A stretch of 25,042 nt of DNA from a virus: positions 15,604 to 40,645 of IMG/VR virus record IMGVR_UViG_3300030060_004051, one strand, 5' to 3'. Below the pieces are notes generated by a model. That model searched no databases and had not been told where the DNA came from. It saw only the letters and a program-made list of their open reading frames with translations. Position numbers and translations under genes: made by a program. Below are positions 4,066-15,668 of the stretch, one piece after another. The first letter of the stretch is position 1; each line of letters begins with the position of its first letter.

Positions 4066-4086
4066 GGGTGGGTCAACCACCCTCAC

Positions 4087-4160
4087 GACTCAGTAGCTCA
4101 GAGGAATAGAGCATCGCTCTTCTAAAGCGTTGGTCGCAGGTTCGAATCCTGCCTGAGTCG
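4087..4160 (+). tRNA. tRNA-Arg (TCT)
   Basis: A full cloverleaf: acceptor GACTCAG/CTGAGTC, D stem GCTC/GAGC, anticodon loop CTTCTAA with anticodon TCT reading AGA, and T arm GCAGG-TTCGAAT-CCTGC. The discriminator is G and CCA is not encoded. The anticodon stem has a T-T mismatch at its outer pair. AGA is common in the phage genes here, fitting a role in matching phage codon use. Confidence 0.95.
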
Positions 4161-4165
4161 TTCAT

Positions 4166-4238
4166 TGGCCTATAGCTCAGTTGGTAGAGCGCGGAGCTGT
4201 TAACTCTGTTGTCCTAGGTTCGAGTCCTAGTGGGCCAG
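4166..4238 (+). tRNA. tRNA-Asn (GTT)
   Basis: Acceptor TGGCCTA pairs with TGGGCCA (one G-T pair), D stem GCTC/GAGC, anticodon stem CGGAG/CTCTG with loop CTGTTAA (anticodon GTT), and T arm CTAGG-TTCGAGT-CCTAG. The discriminator is G. It follows tRNA-Arg after five bases, so the two are probably cut from one precursor. Confidence 0.95.
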
Positions 4239-4271
4239 TGGTCATTTGGGAGACATTAAAATACCCATCCA

Positions 4272-4343
4272 GCCCCCGTAGCTCAGTGGTAGAGCAGGGC
4301 TTTTGTAAAGCTCAGGCCGTAGGTTCAAATCCTATCAGGGGCT
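4272..4343 (+). tRNA. tRNA-Thr (TGT)
   Basis: Acceptor GCCCCCG/CAGGGGC with one C-A mismatch, D stem GCTC/GAGC, anticodon stem GGGCT/AGCTC with loop TTTGTAA (anticodon TGT, reading ACA), and T arm GTAGG-TTCAAAT-CCTAT. Discriminator T; CCA not encoded. Confidence 0.93.
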
Positions 4344-4571
4344 CTTGGAAACCGACGGGTTTCCATTGGGAGTGACAGAAAAGCAGGTGTGGTCAAGCAC
4401 CCTGCATCGTATAGTAAGGAAGGCTGTGGTGGCCACCATATCACCTGGAGACAGGAGATATGAGAACCCATACCAAGGGTCCTGAAAGTTCAGAGGTATT
4501 ACTAGCATTAGTGAGACCCCTCTGTTGGAGGTATAAATGTAATCCTCCCTCCCCACCTACCATTTTTTATT
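4344..4571 (+). ncRNA. Hairpin-rich RNA region after the tRNAs (candidate ncRNA)
   Basis: No convincing gene fills this stretch, but it is dense in local stems: TGGAAACC/GGTTTCCA (4346-4365, GACG loop), GCAGG-T-GTG/CAC-CCTGC (4383-4405, one bulged T), CCTG-GAGA-CAGG (4444-4455), CTGA-AAGT-TCAG (4482-4493), a nested CAGAGG/CCTCTG stem holding ACTA-GCAT-TAGT (4491-4524), and GGAGG/CCTCC (4527-4548). It directly follows three tRNA genes under one promoter. T4 likewise makes stable RNAs C and D of unclear function from its tRNA cluster. A 39-codon frame from the ATG at 4460, preceded by GGAGACAGGAG, is a weak coding alternative. Confidence 0.45.
4532..4539 (+). promoter_or_regulatory. Possible late promoter TATAAATG
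   Basis: TATAAATG differs in one base from TATAAATA and lies 33 bases before the ATG at 4572, in the loop of the GGAGG/CCTCC hairpin. Plausible but imperfect. Confidence 0.35.
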
Positions 4572-5489: not shown

Positions 5490-5867
5490 ATGTTTAAATC
5501 TGCACTGGCAGCCGTTGCTGCCCTCCCCGTCCTCTCTTCCGCTGCCCTGGCAGGTCCCTACGTTAACGTAGAAACCAATGCTGGTTTCACAGGCAACGAT
5601 TACACCGGCGCCGTCACCGACCTTCATGTTGGTTACGAGAACGACCTCGGCGAAAACTCTTCCTGGTACATCCAGGGTGGTCCCGCTATCGTTTCTGTTG
5701 ATGGCGAAGAGTCCTCCACTGAGTTCTCCGGTAAGGTTGGCGTGAACGTGGGCGTGACCGAGAGCGTCGGCGTCTATGGTGAGCTTGCTGCTCTGACCGA
5801 AGACCAAGAGTTCGACACCTCCACCCTTAACGTGGGCGTGAAAGCTGGCATCAAGTACAGCTTCTGA
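5490..5867 (+). CDS. Outer-membrane beta-barrel-like protein
   Basis: A 125-residue secreted protein. Residues 1-21 are a signal peptide ending AALA. The mature part has alternating beta strands (YVNVETNAGF, SWYIQGGPAIVSV, SGKVGVNVGV, STLNVGVKAGIKYSF) and ends in Phe, as outer-membrane barrels do. At about 104 mature residues it is small for a full eight-strand barrel. The gene has its own late promoter, a long leader and a strong terminator, so it is expressed as a unit. It could change the permeability or receptor surface of the host outer membrane, or be a virion component. Codons are C- and G-ending, unlike many neighbours, suggesting high expression. Confidence 0.65.
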   Translation: MFKSALAAVAALPVLSSAALAGPYVNVETNAGFTGNDYTGAVTDLHVGYENDLGENSSWYIQGGPAIVSVDGEESSTEFSGKVGVNVGVTESVGVYGELAALTEDQEFDTSTLNVGVKAGIKYSF

Positions 5868-5890
5868 GTCGAAGTAAAATAGAATACATT

Positions 5891-5916
5891 AGAGGGGCTT
5901 CGGTCCCTCTTTTTTA
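5891..5916 (+). terminator. Intrinsic terminator after the beta-barrel gene
   Basis: AGAGGG (5891-5896) pairs with CCCTCT (5905-5910), with a further G-T pair, followed by a run of T residues. Confidence 0.85.
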
Positions 5917-5936
5917 TTGTCTGAGAGTTGTCTGAG

Positions 5937-5944
5937 AATAAATA
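5937..5944 (+). promoter_or_regulatory. Late promoter AATAAATA
   Basis: AATAAATA inside GAATAAATACAAA, 24 bases before the ATG at 5968. The same 13-base string occurs on the minus strand before the convergent gene at 7866, which suggests joint late expression. Confidence 0.6.
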
Positions 5945-5967
5945 CAAATAACTATACCCTTATCGCT

Positions 5968-6471
5968 ATGAAAAAACTACTCCTCGCAATCTGTGGAGGA
6001 GTGATCTTCATTAGTTCTGCCTCGGCAGCTGAAATTAGTAATACCATCACAGATTCTGTGCAACTCACAGTTAACGGAGCAGGTGTACAATCGACTCGGA
6101 TCGGTTCCTCTTATGCTGTGACTGGAAATAACGTAAGTGTCACCACTTTGGGTGGACTGACTGGAGGCTCGGCAACTGCTCCAGCAACCCTGAGTGCAGG
6201 TGACTATGACATCGGTACCGATGAAGCTAGCTTTAACTTCTCGGAGAGTCTTACCGTGGGAGATACGGTGTCAACTGGAGTCGAAGCATCATCAACCCTC
6301 GGAACCTTTTCCTCCGTAAACATGTACAGTGACAACCAAATTACTGCTGGCGGTACTGCTGGCTCTCTCGCCGGGACACTATCAGCTACAGGCATCTCAA
6401 CTGTCACAGCTGGAGGTCAGGGAACTACCGCCTTGGGACAGAGGACAGTATCTTTATCTGTGTTTGACTGA
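5968..6471 (+). CDS. Secreted beta-rich late protein, SY-TGNN family member 1
   Basis: A 167-residue protein with a signal peptide (MKKLLLAICGGVIFISSASA). The mature part is Ser/Thr/Gly-rich, low in charge and probably beta-structured. It shares SSYAVTGNNVSV and the C-terminal SLSVFD with the next protein (NSYTMTGNNITV, SLSVF), so the two are probably related by duplication. Translation probably starts at the ATG at 5968 rather than at an upstream TTG, since only this gives a clean signal peptide. I infer a virion or cell-surface role; function is unknown. Confidence 0.65.
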   Translation: MKKLLLAICGGVIFISSASAAEISNTITDSVQLTVNGAGVQSTRIGSSYAVTGNNVSVTTLGGLTGGSATAPATLSAGDYDIGTDEASFNFSESLTVGDTVSTGVEASSTLGTFSSVNMYSDNQITAGGTAGSLAGTLSATGISTVTAGGQGTTALGQRTVSLSVFD

Positions 6472-6818
6472 TGAGGGTGTTGTTCATTATTATGAGTGTC
6501 CTGGGGACACCGGCTCTGGCCGCAGTCCCTACGTTCACACGCGGGACAATGACAAGTCGAACTGAAAGTTTCACGACTGTCACCGAGACTTATAACATCG
6601 TTGAGTATTCAACTGGCAACAGTTACACGATGACTGGTAATAACATTACAGTCAGTGGTACTCCAGGTCTCGGTGCTTCTTACTCTCAGACTTCACCAGG
6701 ACATGCCACTCAGTTCTCTGAGTCTGTTCTAGGACCTGGTATCTCTAGGGTTACAAATTTCACTAGAACCACCACCATTCAATCCACCACTGACAGTCTT
6801 TCAGTATTCACCCAGTGA
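6471..6818 (+). CDS. Secreted beta-rich late protein, SY-TGNN family member 2
   Basis: A 115-residue protein whose start overlaps the previous stop by one base. Residues 1-18 are a signal peptide ending PALAA. The mature part is Thr/Ser-rich with SYTMTGNNITV and a C-terminal DSLSVF that match member 1, but it lacks part of the middle region. Probably a shorter paralogue. Function unknown. Confidence 0.6.
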   Translation: MRVLFIIMSVLGTPALAAVPTFTRGTMTSRTESFTTVTETYNIVEYSTGNSYTMTGNNITVSGTPGLGASYSQTSPGHATQFSESVLGPGISRVTNFTRTTTIQSTTDSLSVFTQ

Positions 6819-6824
6819 TTCATA

Positions 6825-7400
6825 ATGAAAAGATTACTTGGTTTGATTTTGTTATTGTCTGCCTGTCCTCAGGTTTATGCTGAGGAGGGAGTAACTGCTG
6901 TTGCCAACCCACAGGCTACTAGCTCTGGCAATGTCACGAACCAGGCAGTTCAAGTGACTAACACTAATCTATTTCAGAACACTTATGGTGGTGGAGTTCA
7001 GTGTCAAGGAACGACACTCTCTATCTCTCCGTTTGTTATTCAAGGTTTTAGTGCTCCTGAATCTAATGTCAAGAATGACTATGGAATTGCAGGAACCATT
7101 AGCATCCCATTAGATGGTGAAGCAGTTAGGTTGTGTAGAGAGCGAGCACAGATTGAGATTGATAGGCAACAGACTGAGACAGATAAAGCTCAGCTAGATT
7201 ACAATCTAGTCAGGGCTTTGAAGTGTGCTGAGATGATTCAGGCTGGGGCTTTTCTACATCCGTCTTCCCCTTACGCGAATCTTTGCGTGGATATTGTGGC
7301 CCTTGATAACACCGGCCGCTATCGAAACGGAATCGGTCAAGTGATTTCAGGTCAACCTCAGTCGTCGGCGTCCCAGAATAATCAGGAGGCTTCTTATTAG
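6825..7400 (+). CDS. Secreted structural-type protein with conserved HPSSPYA motif
   Basis: A 191-residue protein with a signal peptide (MKRLLGLILLLSACPQVYA), a beta-rich middle (VQVTNTNLFQNTYGGGVQCQ) and a charged helix at about 98-125 (RLCRERAQIEIDRQQTETD). Then comes a motif I recall from cyanophage relatives: KCAEMIQAGAF, HPSSPYANLCVDIV. Cysteines at 59, 103, 131 and 152 may form disulfides. The last 191 bases overlap a gene on the opposite strand. It belongs to the late module that starts at 5968; a virion or surface role is likely but unproven. Confidence 0.65.
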   Translation: MKRLLGLILLLSACPQVYAEEGVTAVANPQATSSGNVTNQAVQVTNTNLFQNTYGGGVQCQGTTLSISPFVIQGFSAPESNVKNDYGIAGTISIPLDGEAVRLCRERAQIEIDRQQTETDKAQLDYNLVRALKCAEMIQAGAFLHPSSPYANLCVDIVALDNTGRYRNGIGQVISGQPQSSASQNNQEASY

Positions 7401-12135: not shown

Positions 12136-12167
12136 CTCTCTAAGAAAACTCTCAGACATACCTCACG

Positions 12168-12193
12168 AAACCCTTGGTAAAACAGGGGTTTTT
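12168..12193 (+). terminator. Intrinsic terminator before the pilin cassette
   Basis: AAACCC (12168-12173) pairs with GGGTTT (12186-12191), followed by more T residues. The loop is long (12 bases), so strength is moderate. Confidence 0.65.
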
Positions 12194-12196
12194 CAG

Positions 12197-12206
12197 TGCT
12201 ACAATA
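12197..12206 (+). promoter_or_regulatory. Extended -10 promoter of the pilin cassette
   Basis: TGCTACAATA, identical to the element before ferredoxin, begins four bases after the terminator tract and about 40 bases before the prepilin ATG. GGAGGG lies between but rather far from the start. Confidence 0.65.
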
Positions 12207-12247
12207 GTAAGGTCAAGGAGGGACAACCCTCCACCACCTTATAGATC

Positions 12248-12631
12248 ATGACCAGTTCATTCCAAAAGACCCTCGTCCAACGACTCGCTAAGTCGAAGGC
12301 CAAGAAGCAAAACGGATTCACACTGATCGAGTTGATGGTCGTCGTCGCAATCGTCGGTGTCCTTTCGGCAGTCGGTCTTCCCCAACTGACTAAGGCACAA
12401 GACAAAGCAAAAGACTCGGCAGCAGTCGCCACTCTCACCAACGCCGCTAAAGAGTGTTCACTGGACATCATCTCTGACGCTGACCCTGTCACCACCTTCG
12501 CAACCTTCGACGGCATCACTGGTACCTGTGAGGTGGACGCTGTCCTAAGTATCACCTCTGAATCATCTGATGCAACTGTCTTTGAGACAACATTCGTTGG
12601 TGGCGTCCCTGGCACTGTCGCGGAACAGTGA
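12248..12631 (+). CDS. Type IV prepilin (PilA-like)
   Basis: A 127-residue protein with a class III signal: a basic leader (KSKAKKQNG) ending in Gly23, then FTLIELMVVVAIVGVLSAVG, with Glu28 at the fifth position after the cleavage site as in classical pilins. Prepilin peptidase would cut after Gly23 and N-methylate Phe24. The mature part is about 104 residues with two cysteines (67 and 90) that could form the C-terminal disulfide loop. Such a gene is unexpected in a lytic phage. It could enter the host pilus, alter natural competence or adhesion, or block pilus-dependent phages. C-rich codons (GTCGTCGTCGC) resemble a host-derived gene. Confidence 0.9.
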   Translation: MTSSFQKTLVQRLAKSKAKKQNGFTLIELMVVVAIVGVLSAVGLPQLTKAQDKAKDSAAVATLTNAAKECSLDIISDADPVTTFATFDGITGTCEVDAVLSITSESSDATVFETTFVGGVPGTVAEQ

Positions 12632-12632
12632 T

Positions 12633-13196
12633 ATGAATATCGTATCAACAATGGTTGGTATCACGATCATGGGGGCGGCAGCCCCCGGCGTGATGCAAAT
12701 GACCCTGGCACCAGTAGAAGCCCAGGCTCGCGCAAGAAACTTTAGCACAGCAGAGTCATCTGCTGTGGCTTTTACAGCAGCAAATGAAGGTCAGAAAAAT
12801 ACTGACCTCGCACTCTTACCTGAAAACTGTGATGCCCCTGTAGCTTCATCAACAGGTGGTGGAGCATATGATGTTACCTGTTATGGTGGCGAAGACGATA
12901 GTAAGTATCGACAAGAGGTGACTCGCTCTTACAGGTTGGCAGCTCAAGATATGAATACTTACACCAACCCCGATAGGCAGTTTGCCTTTGAAACACCTCC
13001 AAAATATTCACACGTTGAGTGTCAAACTAATGATCCTTGGGGTGTGATGTGGTATAACGATCACTTAGCTGCTGGTCACTTAGATGCATGTCAGCCTTCA
13101 GTCCTCAGATCCAAAGAGGCTTATCTCGACTCTAACCCTGACGACTGGTTGTATGACATCTCAGACCACGGTTACGGAAGACACCCTAACTACTGA
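12633..13196 (+). CDS. Pilin-like partner protein
   Basis: A 187-residue protein two bases after the prepilin gene. The N-terminus (IVSTMVGITIMGAAAPGVMQ) looks like a pilin hydrophobic helix and is followed by an amphipathic segment (EAQARARNFSTAESSAVAFT) as in minor pilins, but there is no basic leader or Gly-Phe cleavage site. Four cysteines (68, 79, 131, 149) may form disulfides in a globular C-terminal domain of unknown fold. It may be a minor pilin that skips peptidase processing or one that has lost its leader. No alternative upstream start restores a cleavage motif. Confidence 0.65.
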   Translation: MNIVSTMVGITIMGAAAPGVMQMTLAPVEAQARARNFSTAESSAVAFTAANEGQKNTDLALLPENCDAPVASSTGGGAYDVTCYGGEDDSKYRQEVTRSYRLAAQDMNTYTNPDRQFAFETPPKYSHVECQTNDPWGVMWYNDHLAAGHLDACQPSVLRSKEAYLDSNPDDWLYDISDHGYGRHPNY

Positions 13197-13198
13197 TG

Positions 13199-13208
13199 TG
13201 TTATAACT
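13199..13208 (+). promoter_or_regulatory. Possible extended -10 promoter
   Basis: TGTTATAACT resembles the recurrent TGYTAYAATA element with one change in the -10 hexamer and lies 31 bases before the ATG at 13230. Confidence 0.45.
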
Positions 13209-13229: not shown

Positions 13230-13424
13230 ATGGCAACTGATTTGTGGCAAGACATGGCGAGACTAAACGCCCTCTATGAAGAATTGATGTGGCCATCAGA
13301 AGATGACCTCACCATCAGAATAGAGGGCGATCACATCGTCATCCGTAACCTTTCGCAAGAACAACGCGATTGTAACATTGAGTTCACACCCGACGATGAA
13401 TGGGTTGACAAGATGAACGAATGA
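13230..13424 (+). CDS. Small acidic hypothetical protein
   Basis: A 64-residue acidic protein with a helix (DLWQDMARLNALYEELMW) followed by a beta hairpin (LTIRIEGDHIVIRNLS). Unknown function. Confidence 0.55.
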   Translation: MATDLWQDMARLNALYEELMWPSEDDLTIRIEGDHIVIRNLSQEQRDCNIEFTPDDEWVDKMNE

Positions 13425-13436
13425 TGTTACTATAAG
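13425..13436 (+). promoter_or_regulatory. Possible -10 element
   Basis: TGTTACTATAAG contains TG plus a TACTATAAG core immediately before the ATG at 13440. So close a start would give an almost leaderless message, so this call is weak. Confidence 0.25.
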
Positions 13437-15560: not shown

Positions 15561-15668
15561 ATGAACGAAAAAGCAGAACGCACTAATGGTTGGGCCGCTA
15601 TGTTGGGCATCATTGCCGCTATGGGAGCCTACGCAACCACAGGTCAGATCATCCCCGGTATCTGGTGA
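15561..15668 (+). CDS. hli: High-light-inducible protein (short type)
   Basis: A 35-residue minimal Hli: ERTNGWAAMLGIIAAMGAYA gives the helix with Glu, Asn and the AM motif in the pattern of short marine cyanobacterial and phage Hli proteins, followed by TTGQIIPGIW. Thylakoid membrane, photoprotection with the longer Hli. It is easily missed for its size. Confidence 0.9.
   Translation: MNEKAERTNGWAAMLGIIAAMGAYATTGQIIPGIW

Follow-up and report, generated by a model that had tools for sequence, protein, structure and literature searches.

The interval at 12168-13208 of a T4-like cyanophage sequence consists of two genes, a type IV prepilin and a companion designated gp2, and on sequence evidence these form one module rather than a lone gene. 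We consider it likely that this module is a captured host pilin pair which, under an operator of host surface genes, supplies or recoats the pili of the infected cell by means of the host machinery. The window analyzed here is a stretch of 25,042 nucleotides (positions 15,604 to 40,645 of IMG/VR record IMGVR_UViG_3300030060_004051). It comes from a viral contig of 40.6 kb with the gene content of a T4-like cyanophage: psbA, psbD, PhoH, thymidylate synthase and ssDNA-binding protein, along with T4-type baseplate wedge and tube-cap proteins. The original prediction had placed a prepilin in this interval, correctly, but had missed gp2 and the operator. The features of the window referred to below are as follows, with the basis of each assignment in parentheses.

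4086-4344 (+): three consecutive tRNA genes (Arg-TCT, Asn-GTT and Thr-TGT)
12140..12172 (+): candidate operator of three tandem 11-bp repeats, CTAAGAAAACT CTCAGACATAC CTCACGAAACC (motif score, shared position)
12167..12192 (+): terminator-like hairpin with a 10-bp stem and a U-rich 3' arm (fold -14.9 kcal/mol, z -3.1)
12197..12205 (+): extended -10, TGCTACAAT (sequence)
12217..12232 (+): 5'-leader stem GGAGGG-ACAA-CCCTCC, between the -10 and the start codon (read from the sequence)
12248..12631 (+): type IV prepilin, 127 aa (PF07963, phrog_3433, pilins matched by the family profile, alignments)
12248-12316 (+): prepilin leader, 23 residues, basic, ending KKQNG (sequence)
12633..13196 (+): gp2, 187 aa, with a C-terminal Cys-bearing domain ending ...NPDDWLYDISDHGYGRHPNY (phrog_3415, adjacency, register test, model)
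13405-13433: sigma-70-like promoter further downstream, TTGACA-17-TACTAT (consensus scan)

The prepilin gene and its companion

The leader and the family matches identify the ORF at 12248-12631 as a real prepilin. It opens with the full class III prepilin signal that had been predicted, MTSSFQKTLVQRLAKSKAKKQNG followed by FTLIELMVVVAIVGVLSAVGLP; the leader/mature junction reads KKQNG/FTLIELM, with both the G/F site and E5 present. PilD is predicted to cleave after Gly23, so that the mature protein would begin at Phe24 with FTLIELMVVVAIVGVLSAVGLP. In our alignment the NG/FTLIE junction is common to all phage pilin copies, and Cys70 and Cys94 are invariant. The prepilin matches the Pfam N_methyl accession (PF07963) with an E-value of 5.7e-10 and the PHROG 'pilin' family phrog_3433 with 3.4e-37, and pilins of known structure are matched by the family profile with E-values down to 7.6e-14. 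A weak AlphaFold model (pLDDT 72) has a helix at residues 26-75 followed by three strands; a Foldseek comparison of this model to the PDB gave no significant match.

The companion gene starts one base past the pilin stop codon. It carries no annotation in the phage records and matches phrog_3415 (1.9e-45), a family to which no function is assigned. Its start is fixed as M-N-(I/L) across copies, and stop codons 1-3 codons ahead of the Met in several copies exclude a leader further 5' that would make gp2 a prepilin. Both the class III leader and E5 are missing (position 5 is S/T or another residue), and gp2 is thus not a pilin by definition. Its start Met sits at position 1 of a mature pilin. 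In an ungapped register test, Met1 on pilin Phe1 was the best of 17 offsets, with a score reached in 7 of 3000 column shuffles for the paired pilins and 10 of 3000 for other pilins; hhalign chose the same register, but with a probability of only 1.8%. With moderate confidence, the N-terminal helix of gp2 may be called pilin-like. The AlphaFold model of gp2, of low confidence (pLDDT 60), places a helix at residues 17-51 and then strands. Foldseek found no significant PDB match for this model, and comparisons of gp2 to Pfam and to PDB sequences gave chance-level matches only. The low profile-profile probability, the lack of a Pfam match and the poor model would all suit an exported protein, anchored in the membrane and unrelated to pilins, that shares only its transcript with the pilin. 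The register test, in which hhalign agrees, and the adjacency of pilins to gp2 in phages and hosts alike speak against this alternative, which we regard as possible but the less probable view of gp2. The leaderless companion may itself be a pilus component that has so far gone unrecognized.

Matches to the pilin occur in 49 phage records (45 ACG-2014f and 4 S-CAM7), and gp2 matches an equal number of records in the same groups, lying directly 3' of the pilin in every close copy inspected. Each of the ten contigs of the viral collection with the closest pilins (L008-L017) has an adjoining gp2, and a profile search of this collection added two further contigs with gp2. The pair is thus distributed over phage isolates of at least two genera as well as environmental contigs, and what a survey of other cyanophages did not sustain is the picture of a lone cassette. 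The pair also has a host homologue, and its copies occur in lytic phages outside of the structural core, as is the case for auxiliary and host-takeover genes of phages; phrog_3433 is assigned to the category 'moron, auxiliary metabolic gene and host takeover'.

Most contigs carry the pair near psbA or psbD, and in two of them (L218 and L219) it directly follows psbA. This location, and the rarity of the pair among phages (49 records in two named groups only), could be those of a host fragment that travels with the psbA/psbD region at little benefit to the phage. We find such hitchhiking improbable, since both frames are open in most copies across deep divergence (gp2 identity between copies falls to 33-49%), with the Cys residues, the start Met and the operator kept, and since the repeated replacement of the exposed domain alone, described below, argues for use. 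The gp2 frame is broken in a single copy, that of L009.

The host-like codons of the original prediction are not supported for either gene. The GC3 of the pilin (0.575) is like that of the phage psbA (0.599) and of the ssDNA-binding protein gene (0.591), and the GC3 of gp2 is 0.412; by codon log-likelihood, both pilin and gp2 agree more closely with genes of the phage itself than with four host genes. On these two measures, host-like codon usage was rejected as proof of a recent gain. The proposal of a gained cassette is supported as to host origin, for which the match of both pair and operator to the host pair argues, but not as to a single, recently gained prepilin, given the two genes, their spread over phages and the divergence of gp2.

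Host counterparts and the upstream region

Profiles of the pilin and of gp2 were searched over 300 Cyanobiaceae genomes. The pilin profile matches 195 of these genomes. Host copies of gp2 are rare: four full-length matches (E < 1e-58), two N-terminal matches (about 1e-30) and four weak ones. The best five pilin matches and the seventh come from the six genomes with a clear gp2, and each lies directly upstream of it. In four of these genomes (G035, G163, G272 and G284) the pair adjoins lepA, with minor-pilin-like genes close on the other side, and the gp2 ATG is within about 3 nt of the pilin stop or overlaps it. Phylogeny against host pilins, which had been proposed as a check, gave weakly resolved trees of modest support, in which phage pilins interleave with the gp2-paired host pilins, apart from other pilins of the family. 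Clear matches to a profile of the N-terminal 53 residues are confined to Cyanobiaceae in the samples searched. A scan of genome contigs with gp2 peptide patterns, which were too specific, confirmed nothing, and the whole-genome profile search then found gp2; among the matches listed, the genome-contig scan with the pilin returned unrelated, mostly proteobacterial pilins, and was used only to give a cyanobacterial center. The best reading of the pair, from its sequence and gene order, would be a captured host pilin pair.

In L214 (8615-9559) and L215 (9147-10100) the usual C-terminal domain of the host gp2 homologue is replaced by a long Ser/His/Asp-rich, repeat-like tail, for a length of about 315 aa in all. 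Tandem ORFs in L176 (genome G070; 556-954 and 964-1803), and also in L177 (G024), begin like leaderless pilin helices (MGQLLAVLIATVIMG..., MNLVALLIAAALLG...), which suggests that leaderless pilin-like genes may be a wider group in Cyanobiaceae.

The tandem repeats at 12140-12172 follow the consensus CT(A/C)AGAAAACC, which is found about 85-117 bases 5' of the start codon in phage and host pilins. In leave-one-out testing the window operator scored 27.4, compared to 3.3 (sd 3.6) in shuffled sequences; with the final matrix its score is 28.8. Together with its 11-bp register shift it is the only site to score at least 13 in the 25-kb window, where 0.5 would be expected. Fourteen of 17 upstream regions had p <= 0.035 by leave-one-out; the exceptions are L009, G163 and G261. 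In L009 and in host G163 the operator is either missing or below significance. The motif had been seeded from phage sequences before this testing, and more weight is therefore given to independent tests of the operator. It also occurs ahead of pilins on which it was not trained, with scores of 30.5 in G107 (the highest) and 19.6 at the second pilin of G272. The exact three-repeat pattern occurs at about 35 places in the 300 genomes, versus about 14 for a reversed control. Among 30 such loci that were scanned, three precede a pilin match by roughly 90-110 bases, and four stand just ahead of proteins that resemble, by eye, CBM2-like carbohydrate-binding surface proteins; these proteins and the pilins would make up a possible surface-protein regulon. 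Direct repeats in an 11-bp phase are characteristic of regulators of the OmpR/PhoB type, and at the pilin the repeats have this arrangement, 5' of a promoter. They are best read as a putative OmpR/PhoB-type operator and a probable host surface-gene switch. The TCTCA repeats were also considered as a general phage promoter element, and this was rejected on finding the full motif in the window only at the pilin.

Related observations were made elsewhere. Exact CTCAG 11-bp triple repeats lie upstream of CBM2-like surface proteins of Cyanobiaceae in L264-L267. In the window, an inverted two-repeat match to the operator motif, CTCAGACAACTCTCA, occurs at 5922-5936 (-), in the gap before a secreted-protein gene at 5965. 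A run of four secreted-looking proteins extends over 5490-7400 (+); one is a cyanophage outer-membrane beta-barrel (PF24653, 1.8e-46) and the other three have signal-peptide-like starts, with matches that include phrog_564 and phrog_848. This run points to remodeling of the host envelope as a further activity of the phage.

The transcription signals of the original prediction were recovered. The terminator ahead of the prepilin corresponds to the hairpin at 12167-12192, which a consensus terminator scan did not list; it overlaps the third operator repeat and probably ends the upstream operon. The extended -10 is present, and a -10-like CTAnAAT is the consensus at the matching place in related upstream regions. 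Downstream of the pair, the predicted promoter is the sigma-70-like one listed above. Leader stems of the GGAGG(N)CCTCC type are found in three phage pilins (those of the window, L010 and L011) and might sequester the Shine-Dalgarno sequence or stabilize the 5' end.

Exchange of the exposed pilin domain

From their isolate names (Syn7803...), we take the ACG-2014f accessions to belong to a published isolate study. That study drew its phages from two water samples and isolated all of them on a single strain, WH7803 (PMC5112629); its text never uses the name ACG-2014f and has no word beginning with 'pil'. Three pilin alleles occur among the ACG-2014f isolates. Over five isolates the flanking DNA is mostly 95-99% identical, whereas the C-terminal part of the pilin is 43-59% identical between alleles. 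When isolates US3 and US4 are compared over 50 kb, the pilin shows the lowest identity among 53 proteins (52.7%; the median is 100%), followed by gp2 at 90.4% and a tail fibre at 92.0%. The divergence of allele C runs into the first 60 codons of gp2 (83-85% DNA identity) and identity then recovers. The exposed domain of allele B shares 73% identity with its counterpart in S-CAM7, which belongs to a different genus; that of allele C is 71-73% identical to those of two environmental phages and 63% to that of host G284. Exposed domains therefore appear, from these identities, to circulate among phages and hosts, and not simply to track the host strain used.

Since the tail fibre is also among the more divergent proteins, variation of the exposed domain could reflect receptor binding, with the pilin and gp2 on the surface of the particle as an aid to adsorption. 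Such a virion role is most improbable: a prepilin with an inner-membrane type III leader is targeted to the membrane, the genes are grouped with the psbA/psbD auxiliary genes, and phages with all three alleles infected the same strain. The swapping of the exposed domain suggests that something outside of the cell recognizes this domain.

Known systems and proposed role

The pilin itself is already known, since it is labelled in GenBank and PHROGs; the companion, the operator and the allele swapping appear to be new to description. The literature searched, which did not cover subscription journals and preprints, yielded no cyanophage pilins, phage-encoded pilins or leaderless pilins, nor a constant pilin-like partner, a shared operator or allele replacement. 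The nearest relatives in phages are the 'pilin' proteins of ACG-2014f and S-CAM7 (phrog_3433), which belong to the same family, have the same neighbor gene and share 49-52% identity with the window pilin over most of the protein, although the exposed domain of the window pilin shares only about 20% identity with theirs. The records of those phages annotate neither the partner gene nor the operator. The best PDB sequence match of the pilin is a geopilin. Geopilins (PilA-N/PilA-C of Geobacter, PDB 7tgg) likewise combine a short pilin with an adjoining partner gene, but there the partner, PilA-C, is the globular domain that was split from that pilin; gp2, by contrast, has an N-terminal helix of its own. 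Tip pseudopilins such as GspK resemble gp2 in having a pilin-like helix that lacks E5. GspK has a leader and is processed, unlike the leaderless gp2, and no sequence match between them was found. The PilA1-PilE pair of WH7803 (SynWH7803_1795/1796; PMC7994388) offers a small PilA-type prepilin with a GFTLxE leader, a distinct second partner gene and a hypervariable C-terminal domain, all in the same kind of cyanobacterial host. The differences are that PilE has its own GFTLxE leader, which gp2 lacks, and that the window pair is carried by a lytic phage.

The window's record and two complete phages, ACG-2014f and S-CAM7, gave no match to the prepilin peptidase (PF01478) and none above the family cut-off to the assembly ATPase (PF00437); any pilus function therefore needs host machinery. 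Together with the match to a host pilin pair, this lends support to the action on host pili that had been predicted. One form of such action would be a jammed pilus, in which pilin and gp2 poison the host apparatus so that pili fail to extend or to retract, to the exclusion of pilus-dependent phages or of DNA uptake. A subunit that lacks E5 and a leader, as gp2 does, might cap or poison a pilus, and superinfection exclusion directed at pili is known from Pseudomonas phages. Hosts carry the same pair at a pilus locus, however, so it is not evident that gp2 acts as a poison; a jammer would have no use for a swapped exposed domain, and the literature searched contained no pilus-dependent cyanophage. 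We accordingly rate jamming as unlikely.

The preferred reading is the resupply or recoating of host pili. The module would have been captured along with a promoter operator of the host family, or would have regained one later; in the host family, this operator would serve the pilins and certain other surface proteins. The infected cell would make the phage pilin and the co-translated gp2; host PilD would cut the prepilin, and the host type IV pilus machine would assemble the product, with gp2 as a pilus-associated partner. The pili of the infected cell would thereby be supplied, and recoated, with phage pilin. We infer this incorporation from sequence, and likewise prepilin processing, assembly, the identity of the regulator and the benefit. 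The absence from gp2 of a leader to carry its C-terminal part over the membrane counts against this reading. As for the benefit, the infected cell could remain in suspension and escape grazing as the expression of host genes breaks down, or it could turn an altered pilus surface towards rival phages or grazers. The former is plausible because PilA1 pili of WH7803 prevent sinking and grazing (PMC7994388); the latter is favored by the fact that it is the exposed domain that is swapped. More tentatively, the whole may be a pilus-recoating module with a host surface-gene switch and an antigen-like exchange of exposed domains, by which a pilus of the phage's choosing is shown to rivals, grazers and the water column; this fullest version is conceivable but somewhat doubtful.

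The hypervariable tips of marine Synechococcus pili have been proposed as a trait for escape from phages (PMC7994388), and this idea becomes directly testable with a phage that has that domain and shuffles it. The swapping of the exposed part between sister viruses, together with a host-style switch, suggests that the virus rebuilds the pili of the infected cell. The host genes of cyanophages studied to date are mostly metabolic. If the proposed role is true, these phages would also manage the exterior of the infected cell: its buoyancy, its grazing and who else infects it.
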